Source: Verrucomicrobiota bacterium (GTDB lineage: Bacteria > Verrucomicrobiota > Verrucomicrobiia > Limisphaerales > AAA164-E04). From it: a DNA stretch of 39,908 nucleotides. A program made the position numbers and the translations under genes. The DNA lies in assembly GCA_027619545.1 (NCBI GenBank), contig JAQCFT010000006.1, positions 1-39,908 of the forward strand, written 5' to 3'. Below, in pieces: positions 32,338 through 35,340 of the stretch; within the stretch, counting starts at the first letter, position 1, and each line of letters begins with the position of its first letter. Below the pieces are notes generated by a model that saw only the letters and a list, made by a program, of their open reading frames with translations, was not told where the DNA came from and did not search any database.

Positions 32338-33129
32338 ATGAACAACAAAGCGGCGATCATTACAGGAGCTTCAAGGGGCATCGGCCGGGGCATCGGACTG
32401 GAATTGGCCCGGATCGGTTATGACCTGATCATCAACTACGCAGGCAATCAGAAAGCCGCCCTGGAAACAGTCCGGGAATGCGAGGCTGCCGCCACTGAAG
32501 CCGGACATGCGATCAAAGCCATACCCGTCAAGGCAAACGTAGGGCACCCGGATGACCGGGAACACCTTTTGAATGAAACCAAAAAAGCATTTGGGCGCCT
32601 GGATCTGCTCGTCAACAATGCCGGTATCACTTCGATCGGCAGAGCTGACATTCTTGAAGCCAAAGAAGAAAACTTTGACCAACTCATGGCGGTCAATTTG
32701 AAAGGGCCCTTCTTCCTCAGCCAGCAAGCGGCCAACTGGATGATCGAACTTTTAAAGGCAGGTAATGTGAATGCTCCAAAAATTGTCAATGTATCATCCA
32801 TCAGCGCCTACACCGTTTCAGTCAACCGGGCGGATTATTGCATGGCCAAGGCGGCTCTGGGCATGATGACCAAACTCTATGCCGTCCGGCTCGCGGAACA
32901 TGGCATCCGGGTCTATGAAATATGCCCGGGTATCATTGCTTCCGACATGACAGCTCCTGTGCAGGCCAAATACGACAAACTCATCGCAGAAGGCCTGACG
33001 CCCATGCCCAGATGGGGACAGCCTTCGGACATCGGCAAAACCATCACCGCCGTCGCCCAGGATTACCTTCCATTCAGCACCGGCGAAGTCATCAATGTCG
33101 ACGGCGGCTTCCACCTTCGCAAACTCTAA
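32338..33129 (+). CDS. Short-chain dehydrogenase/reductase (3-ketoacyl-ACP reductase-like)
   Basis: NAD(P)-dependent oxidoreductase of the classical SDR family. The 263 residues have the Rossmann glycine motif TGASRGIG (9-16), NNAG (93-96), the catalytic Ser at 153/154 and Tyr167/Lys171 (YCMAK), and the C-terminal STGEVINVDGG. FabG is the nearest type in general appearance, but without a fatty-acid context the substrate is open. It diverges from ptsI across 176 bases. Confidence 0.92.
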   Translation: MNNKAAIITGASRGIGRGIGLELARIGYDLIINYAGNQKAALETVRECEAAATEAGHAIKAIPVKANVGHPDDREHLLNETKKAFGRLDLLVNNAGITSIGRADILEAKEENFDQLMAVNLKGPFFLSQQAANWMIELLKAGNVNAPKIVNVSSISAYTVSVNRADYCMAKAALGMMTKLYAVRLAEHGIRVYEICPGIIASDMTAPVQAKYDKLIAEGLTPMPRWGQPSDIGKTITAVAQDYLPFSTGEVINVDGGFHLRKL

Positions 33130-33301: not shown

Positions 33302-33401
33302 ACATATTGATAATGTATAAGTTACATTTCAAAAACCCCGCCAAGCCGTATGCACAACAAGGTGCATTTTTTTAGATTTTATCTTGATCTTCCCTTTTTC
33401 T

Positions 33402-33634
33402 GACGAGAGAATGCTCGTTCGCCTGAGTCCCGCGAGTGCGGATGGCTCATTAGAGGCTGAAATGAGTGTTAACCATCAACCTAACCCTCATTATACTTCT
33501 CCGTGCTCCGGTGAACGTGTGTTAGGCCGATGGGTTTTGCTCGAGGATGTCGCCGTTTTTGCGGTGAATCCTGAGTCGAACACACAGGTCGGAGCCTCCT
33601 TAAGATAAGTAATATCAAAGGCGCAGCATTGCGT
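33402..33634 (+). promoter_or_regulatory. Candidate structured 5' leader RNA of rpsA
   Basis: Successive stems can be drawn by hand. (1) 33402-33407 with 33414-33419. (2) CTCATT/AATGAG, 33446-33451 with 33461-33466. (3) A long hairpin in which CCATC-aa-CCTAAC (33473-33485) pairs with GTTAGG-cc-GATGG (33521-33533) and an inner stem (33495-33503 with 33509-33518) caps it. (4) 33540-33555 with 33562-33575, about 13 pairs. (5) CGCA/TGCG at 33622-33633. This is much more pairing than in other spacers here. It does not match any riboswitch or ribosomal leader I can recall. Autoregulation by S1 is an inference. Confidence 0.5.
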
Positions 33635-33657
33635 CTCGGTTGTATCATTAATTCATT

Positions 33658-35340
33658 ATGCTAACCATGGAAGAAGCCATGCAGCAAAGTCCCGTGAACT
33701 TTGCTGAAGGCGACATAGTCAAAGGAACCATTATCGAAGTCCGCCACAAAGAAGTGCTTTGTGATATCGGCTACAAAAGCGAAGGTTCCATCCCCGGAAA
33801 CGAATTCGACGACATTAAAATGGTCAATGTCGGCGACATCATCGACGTATTGATTGAACGGTTGGAAGACCGTGAAGGCATGGTCGTCCTCTCCAAAGAA
33901 AAAGCGGAATTCAAGCAGAACTGGGAAAAAATCCTCAGCATCTGTAACGAGGGCGGCACCATCACCGGACGCGTCAAAGGCGTGGTCAAAGGTGGTCTTC
34001 TGGTCAACATCGGTGTGGAAGCCTTCCTGCCGGCTTCCCAAATTGACATCATTCCTCCAAAGAACCTGACCTCCTACGTGGGCAACACCTACGAATACAA
34101 AGTGGTCAAGATCAACCAGGAACGTCAAAACATCGTTCTTTCACGCCGCGAACTGATCGAACAGGAACGCGCCGAACGCCGCGCCAAGCTGCTTTCGGAC
34201 ATGACCCCTGGCGACATCCGCAAGGGTACCGTCAAGAACATCACCGATTTCGGTGCCTTCATCGACCTCAACGGTCTCGACGGTCTTCTCCACATCACAG
34301 ACATGAGCTGGGGCCGCATCAACCATCCTTCCGAACTCCTGACCATCGGACAGGAAATCGATGTGGTTGTTCTGGACATCAACTACGAGAAAGAGCGCGT
34401 GAGCCTCGGTCTGAAACAGAAACTCGCCAACCCTTGGGACGACATCGAAACCAAGTACCCTGTCAGCGCGAAAGTCAAAGGCCGCGTGGTCAATTTGGTA
34501 CCTTACGGTGCGTTCGTGGAACTCGAACCCGGCGTCGAAGGTCTGGTTCACGTTACCGAATTGTCCTGGACCAAGCGTATCGCCAAGCCTTCCGACGTCC
34601 TGACACAGGACCAGGAAATCGAAGCGGTCGTTCTGGGCATCAACCGCGAAGAGCAAAAGATCTCCCTGGGTATCCGCCAATTGGAAACCAACCCTTGGGA
34701 CGAAGCCTTGGAGAAATATCCTCCAGGCACCAAAGTGCAGGGCAAGATCCGCAATCTCACCAGCTACGGTGCTTTCATCGAACTGGAAGAAGGTCTCGAC
34801 GGCATGATCCACGTGTCCGACATTTCCTGGACCCGCAAGATCAACCATCCTTCGGAAGTGCTCAAGAAGGGCGACGAGGTCGAAGCCATTGTATTGGAAA
34901 TCGACAAGGCCAACCAACGTATCTCTGTGGGTGTCAAGCAGCTTAGCCAGGATCCATGGGAAAACATCGACCACTACTACAAAGTGGGTGATCTGGTCAC
35001 AGGCAGCGTGACGAAGCTCGCAAGCTTCGGAGCGTTCATCGGTCTGGAACACGACATCGACGGGTTGGTTCATATCTCCCAGGTCAGCGAAGAACGGGTT
35101 GAAAAGATCAAAAACGTTCTGAAGGTGGGTCAGGAAGTGACCGCTCGTGTGATCAAGATCGATCGTGCAGATCGTCGCATTGGATTGTCCATCAAGGCAG
35201 CCAATTACTCCACCGAGGAATTGGAAGCCGAGCAGCACGCTCTCGACCAGCTCAAACCTGGCGAAGACCTAGTGGCTCTGCAACACGCCTTTGACGCTGT
35301 CACCACCACTGATAACAGTGACGATGACAACGAAGATTGA
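33658..35340 (+). CDS. rpsA: 30S ribosomal protein S1
   Basis: RNA-binding ribosomal protein that helps the 30S subunit load structured mRNAs. The 560 residues contain six S1 domains (about 18-85, 103-170, 190-259, 275-345, 360-430, 447-517), with repeated cores such as GRVVNLVPYGAFVELEPGVE and GKIRNLTSYGAFIELEEGLD. The C-terminus is acidic. Codon use is more uniform and C-ending than in its neighbours, as expected for a highly expressed gene. No Shine-Dalgarno precedes the ATG; an alternative ATG is at 33667. A long leader and a strong terminator frame it as a single-gene unit. Confidence 0.97.
   Translation: MLTMEEAMQQSPVNFAEGDIVKGTIIEVRHKEVLCDIGYKSEGSIPGNEFDDIKMVNVGDIIDVLIERLEDREGMVVLSKEKAEFKQNWEKILSICNEGGTITGRVKGVVKGGLLVNIGVEAFLPASQIDIIPPKNLTSYVGNTYEYKVVKINQERQNIVLSRRELIEQERAERRAKLLSDMTPGDIRKGTVKNITDFGAFIDLNGLDGLLHITDMSWGRINHPSELLTIGQEIDVVVLDINYEKERVSLGLKQKLANPWDDIETKYPVSAKVKGRVVNLVPYGAFVELEPGVEGLVHVTELSWTKRIAKPSDVLTQDQEIEAVVLGINREEQKISLGIRQLETNPWDEALEKYPPGTKVQGKIRNLTSYGAFIELEEGLDGMIHVSDISWTRKINHPSEVLKKGDEVEAIVLEIDKANQRISVGVKQLSQDPWENIDHYYKVGDLVTGSVTKLASFGAFIGLEHDIDGLVHISQVSEERVEKIKNVLKVGQEVTARVIKIDRADRRIGLSIKAANYSTEELEAEQHALDQLKPGEDLVALQHAFDAVTTTDNSDDDNED

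Follow-up and report, generated by a model that had tools for sequence, protein, structure and literature searches.

Ribosomal protein S1 shows little preference for particular mRNA sequences, yet it must recognise its own message if it is to regulate itself. The rpsA locus of a verrucomicrobial contig, of which the first 39,908 nt (the window) were analysed, raises the question of how such recognition might be achieved. In the window, a short-chain dehydrogenase gene ends at 33129 and rpsA starts at 33658, at an ATG that is followed by a second possible start at 33667. An earlier note on this DNA described the roughly 350 nt before rpsA as gene-free and as a highly structured leader RNA that S1 could bind. 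No convincing gene has been found there, and the gene downstream is indeed rpsA, encoding a protein with six S1 domains. On its 3' side, a hairpin and a T-run precede tyrS, which makes S1 the natural ligand for such a leader. The features of the region are collected in Table 1.

Table 1. Features of the rpsA leader region, in coordinates of the window
Feature	Position	Strand	Basis or remark
Predicted leader promoter: TTGATC (33384-33389), 17 nt, GAGAAT (33407-33412)	33384..33412	+	CTTGC(A/C)-N17-TAtnnT at the same place in relatives
P1, 5'-terminal stem-loop: helices GCC/GGC, GAGU/GGCUC and CCGC/GCGG, loop GAGU	33421..33457	+	Compensatory changes
Possible closing helix GAGGCU (33453-33458)/AGCCUC (33593-33598)	33453..33598	+	Minimum-energy folds of the window, L002 and L005
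AACC-repeat tract GUUAACCAUCAACCUAACC (33468-33486), which may be exposed in the loop of AAUGAG (33461-33466)/CUCAUU (33488-33493); candidate S1-binding tract	33461..33493	+	Conserved through the order
Helix CCUAAC (33480-33485)/GUUAGG (33521-33526) around the local hairpin UUCuCCG (33497-33503)/CGGuGAA (33509-33515)	33480..33526	+	Main group
Possible long-range helix CUCCG (33499-33503)/CGGAG (33590-33594), counterpart of main-group CUCCGUUGCC/GGCAAUGGAG	33499..33594	+	Pairing counts (see text)
Genus-specific inserted hairpin (second stem)	33539..33576	+	-20.7 kcal/mol here; -19.6 in L002, with different base pairs
Stretch before the start codon, without Shine-Dalgarno sequence; small hairpin at 33617-33637	33600..33657	+	SD-like 4-mers precede 5% of 166 rpsA starts in the order
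rpsA, 30S ribosomal protein S1, 560 aa	33658..35340	+	NCBIfam NF004952, E = 8e-219; Pfam S1 x 6

The leader is shorter than had been supposed. Its 5' boundary had been placed at 33302, but the conserved RNA starts only near 33421. Since conservation in the alignment begins at GCCTGA (33421), and since relatives have a cTTGCa-N17-TAtnnT promoter 5-8 nt ahead of P1, the predicted start of the leader transcript is most likely at about 33419-33421. The corresponding elements of the window form a weak consensus. The TTGACA (33273)/TTTAAA (33296) promoter to which the leader had been assigned was missed by the consensus scan and was not seen in the close relatives inspected. In the window, a terminator-like hairpin (33350-33367) with seven T (to 33373) lies about 50 nt beyond this good pair; the segment 33273-33373 is possibly a short separate transcript or carries the terminator of the upstream gene.

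Folding of the region points to a structured RNA. The segment 33302-33657 folds better than chance (z = -3.8), as does 33419-33657 (z = -3.4; 2 of 200 shuffles as good). The best-supported element is P1, a stem-loop that is absent from the earlier note's description. The covariation among relatives on which that note had made the leader depend was found in P1: among 90 sequences, analysed with slid and shuffled controls, all eight inner pairs show double compensatory changes and 99% of the cells are paired. Throughout the whole structure, 57 cells carry double changes, compared with 11.9 in shuffles. When 152 sequences were aligned, the five column pairs with the strongest covariation all fell in P1. 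A tree-based covariation test placed two pairs at E < 0.05 and three at E < 1, again all in P1; because its null ignores the per-column rate, the test probably errs on the conservative side in the invariant core. This stem-loop would probably hold the AACC tract open and protect the 5' end.

The leader is restricted to one order, judged to be Limisphaerales/Pedosphaerales of the Verrucomicrobiota. A DNA search of 58 relatives recovered 33418-33607 within the genus; the first 70 bases of this part were found throughout the order, and clear matches always adjoined rpsA. R1, a covariance model of 119 positions derived from 20 relatives, matches the window at 33421-33540 with 51.2 bits and recognises 229 of 293 genomes of the order, with one match per genome and two exceptions. 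In a sample of the class, 41 of 286 genomes were matched, all of the same order, and in a phylum sample of 195 genomes the sole match was the window's own genome; outside the order, R1 found no match among about 230 genomes of the class and 194 of the phylum sample. Of 162 aligned hits, one lies at a contig end. The other 161 have rpsA in reach, and each is located directly upstream of it on the same strand, none beside another gene, the distance from the end of R1 to the start codon having a median of 55 nt. Among 25 non-matching genomes examined, 14 lack rpsA at the threshold used, probably through assembly gaps; the other 11 carry it, and in every one of them a P1-type 5' stem-loop missed by the model is visible by eye. 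Covariation of P1 and exclusive linkage to rpsA thus strongly support a structured rpsA leader. Two leader matches on different contigs are present in G034 (L010/L109 and L019) and in G212; in G034, both precede an rpsA reading frame and may represent a second copy or a mixed assembly.

P1 is followed by GCUGAGAAA, a single-stranded stretch with GUUAAC, AACC, UAACC and YUYAACC, and then by a domain with 90-99% conserved positions. The AAUGAG/CUCAUU stem around the AACC tract is found in the folds of L002, L004 and L005 and has a weaker counterpart in the main group. On the sense strand, AACC clusters are more frequent than in shuffles at 163 of 169 loci from the order and at 45 of 53 from other orders; the reverse strand and coding windows seldom contain them. 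At least three copies within 45 nt occur in 25% of the 53 rpsA loci of other orders, compared with 0% on the reverse strand and 0% in coding windows. Of 49 other upstream regions in one genome of the order, not one has three copies in 45 nt; in G309, two of 55 reach the threshold, so that the tract is not exclusive to rpsA in some genomes. Three AACC copies were rejected as a genome-wide marker, being unspecific (46 places in G106) and informative only by their position upstream of genes. The tract is a good candidate for the contact with S1.

Two hairpins had been taken as the main structures of the leader, and each stands in part. The hairpin at 33473-33533 appears in the minimum-energy fold and in the centroid, but the outer stem is shared by none but the nearest genomes: L002 has weaker outer pairs, and neither L004, a further species of the genus, nor L005, from the family, retains them. 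The CCUAAC/GUUAGG core of the hairpin recurs in the main group; the choice of this hairpin as the main one was right only locally. The second stem is also present in the minimum-energy fold and the centroid and is kept in L002, but not with the same base pairs.

The very conserved domain contains strands with more than one possible partner. In the main group, the CCUAAC/GUUAGG helix is paired in 98.5% of cells, with one pair showing a double change; it is absent in L004 and L005. The long-range helix CUCCGUUGCC/GGCAAUGGAG is 99.3% paired in the main group and nearly invariant, and double changes in it occur in family f2 and, judged by eye, in L005. As a nested helix it competes with CCUAAC/GUUAGG; alternatively, the two form a pseudoknot. 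In the window, a nested fold with CUCCG/CGGAG is less stable by about 10 kcal/mol. CUCCGUUGCC has two options, full pairing with GGCAAUGGAG or pairing of its GUUGC with a nearby GCAAC; the possible partner of GUUAGG is CCUAAC, and that of GGAG-N-CUU is the more distal AAG-Y-CUCC. In L228, GGAG/CUCC is kept as GAAG/CUUC. Over 97 sequences, the energies of the alternative folds are close, with a mean difference of 1.05 kcal/mol (sd 3.8). The two helices have their strands set apart by an insertion in L032 and L229 and by three additional bases in L009, which would allow both to coexist as a pseudoknot. Main-group sequences differ too little in this domain for covariation to decide between the folds, and the two-state idea draws on predicted folding energies and wobble-compatible changes. 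The domain is a possible two-state switch or pseudoknot. The GAGGCU/AGCCUC helix shows a compensatory change in L005 (GGGCU/AGCCC); it was rejected as a general helix, being 87% paired in the larger alignment with mostly non-compensatory variation, and is kept as a possible one.

The way in which translation of rpsA begins bears on the function of the leader. No Shine-Dalgarno sequence precedes the ATG, as the earlier note had stated. SD-like 4-mers are as scarce at rpsA starts in the order as given in Table 1, compared with 18% in a noisy sample of other starts, and the 3' end of 16S rRNA, CCUCCUUU, is intact despite this scarcity. In gammaproteobacteria, S1 represses its own SD-less mRNA via a structured leader with single-stranded stretches (PMC10931766). 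This precedent, together with the SD-less rpsA and the order-wide AACC tract, favours autogenous translational control by S1. From sequence comparison and analogy, it seems rather probable that the RNA acts in cis, as a 5' leader allowing S1 to hold down its own translation. The 30S subunit would need its own S1 to initiate at the SD-less site. Free S1, when it accumulates, would bind the AACC tract and the neighbouring structure, and binding would shift the balance of the alternative folds and keep the 30S subunit off, so that S1 represses its own translation. Transcription attenuation was rejected, as no T-run is seen after the last conserved hairpin in the aligned leaders. The longest stretch shared with or complementary to 16S rRNA is within the range of shuffles, giving no sign of mimicry or pairing.

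The depletion of SD sequences and the AACC/AAC-rich tracts would also suit a constitutive translation enhancer, in which the structures would offer the 30S subunit unpaired RNA as an S1 landing site on SD-less rpsA, without feedback. The E. coli rpsA region has also been described as highly efficient without an SD sequence (cited in PMC4679880). This explanation is nevertheless unlikely, since it leaves unexplained why the second domain is so strongly conserved in sequence and why strands have two partners. These features would agree with a riboswitch or leader for another ligand, such as a metabolite, an ion, another protein or a small RNA, which would toggle the domain between the fold with CCUAAC/GUUAGG and GUUGC/GCAAC and the fold with CUCCGUUGCC/GGCAAUGGAG, the two being near-isoenergetic. 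Another ligand is conceivable because the sequence of the domain is under tighter constraint than S1 binding might require, and this counts against control by S1. A ligand of this kind is quite unlikely, however: the leader is found only upstream of rpsA and never of another gene, the metabolic genes sharing a ligand by which a metabolite riboswitch is recognised do not follow it, and it has no Rfam riboswitch match.

A separate small RNA merely located upstream of rpsA, which had been mentioned as an alternative, would fit the promoter immediately 5' and the compact structure. It is very improbable, since the rpsA promoter is where the RNA starts, and the 50-60 nt between its end and the start codon contain no terminator, the gap to rpsA being short in all relatives. 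The probability of a chance structure or a short coding region is negligible, as P1 shows compensatory changes, the 74-codon TTG ORF at 33384-33608, open in the window, is interrupted in relatives by non-triplet indels and stop codons and has no Pfam match, and the upstream ORF or leader peptide at AUGGAG has no conserved frame and loses its AUG in L043, L044 and L032.

The leader of S1 synthesis favoured here does not correspond to any family described in the sources searched, in agreement with the earlier note. None of 4227 Rfam families reached its gathering score in the window or in 10 related loci, and at E values up to 10 nothing but chance matches was obtained for the leader; RF02202 in L034 (24.8 bits against 80) was discarded as one of these. 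The main text of a 2020 survey of ribosomal-protein leaders contains no S1 leader and no mention of rpsA, bS1 or Verrucomicrobia (PMC7247131). A literature search, with most subscription journals and supplements outside its scope, returned no S1 leader in Verrucomicrobiota. The RNA is provisionally regarded as an undescribed member of the ribosomal-protein leaders, unusual for its repeated AACC tract. As in this class, it combines a covarying conserved secondary structure with an exclusive position upstream of a ribosomal protein gene. rRNA mimicry, which is optional, was not found, and most such motifs are without it according to the main text of the survey, which presents 20 leaders (PMC7247131). 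The leaders in that text are likewise lineage-restricted conserved structured RNAs upstream of only one ribosomal protein gene (PMC7247131).

The closest functional parallel is the rpsA leader of gammaproteobacteria such as E. coli, which likewise has several hairpins, exposed single strands and no canonical Shine-Dalgarno sequence (PMC10931766, PMC4679880). Compared by description, the hairpins and sequences of the two differ as far as can be judged: the gammaproteobacterial leader has AU-rich linkers and is conserved in gammaproteobacterial families, whereas the verrucomicrobial one has the AACC tract and belongs to one order. Feedback by S1 has been shown for the former, whereas we infer it for the latter. 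In Beggiatoaceae, TAACTGA repeats before S1 genes were proposed as an S1 target (PMC4679880). These are likewise short repeats before rpsA, but they abut the start codon and occur at many genes, whereas the AACC repeats are embedded in a structured rpsA leader. Natural S1 control RNAs in the cited literature come from gammaproteobacteria only. More speculatively, and only as a tentative idea, Verrucomicrobiota may have evolved several unrelated leader architectures around a common AACC tract recognised sequence-specifically by the tandem OB-folds of S1; in this order, the tract would be linked to an RNA switch, bistable or pseudoknotted, by which S1 shuts down its own translation. If true, this would provide an S1 autoregulatory RNA family outside Proteobacteria and a sequence-defined S1 target. 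The order-wide covarying leader and the architectures of sister orders offer many natural variants for testing mRNA choice by S1, and the leader can be annotated as a new RNA family in a phylum from which few regulatory RNAs are known.

A different, likewise conserved rpsA leader was observed in Opitutae (L063:1040-1194, L094, L085 and 16 other loci; alignment A6). Its hairpin loop pairs with an upstream strand (UCGCGGC/GCCGCGA) and with a distant downstream GGAGC (GCUCC/GGAGC), and 12 of 17 pairs show compensatory changes. It looks like a second, pseudoknotted S1 leader. Like the leader of the window, it lies upstream of rpsA and has an AACC tract and a long-range CUCC/GGAG helix; unlike it, the Opitutae leader has crossing helices and is unmatched by R1. 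Akkermansia-type rpsA upstream regions (L053, L056, L074, L077, L086, L087, L089, L091 and L095) contain G/C-rich stems with GGCGCCC-like loops, followed near the gene by A/C-rich tracts such as AACGAACCAACAACACAACC.
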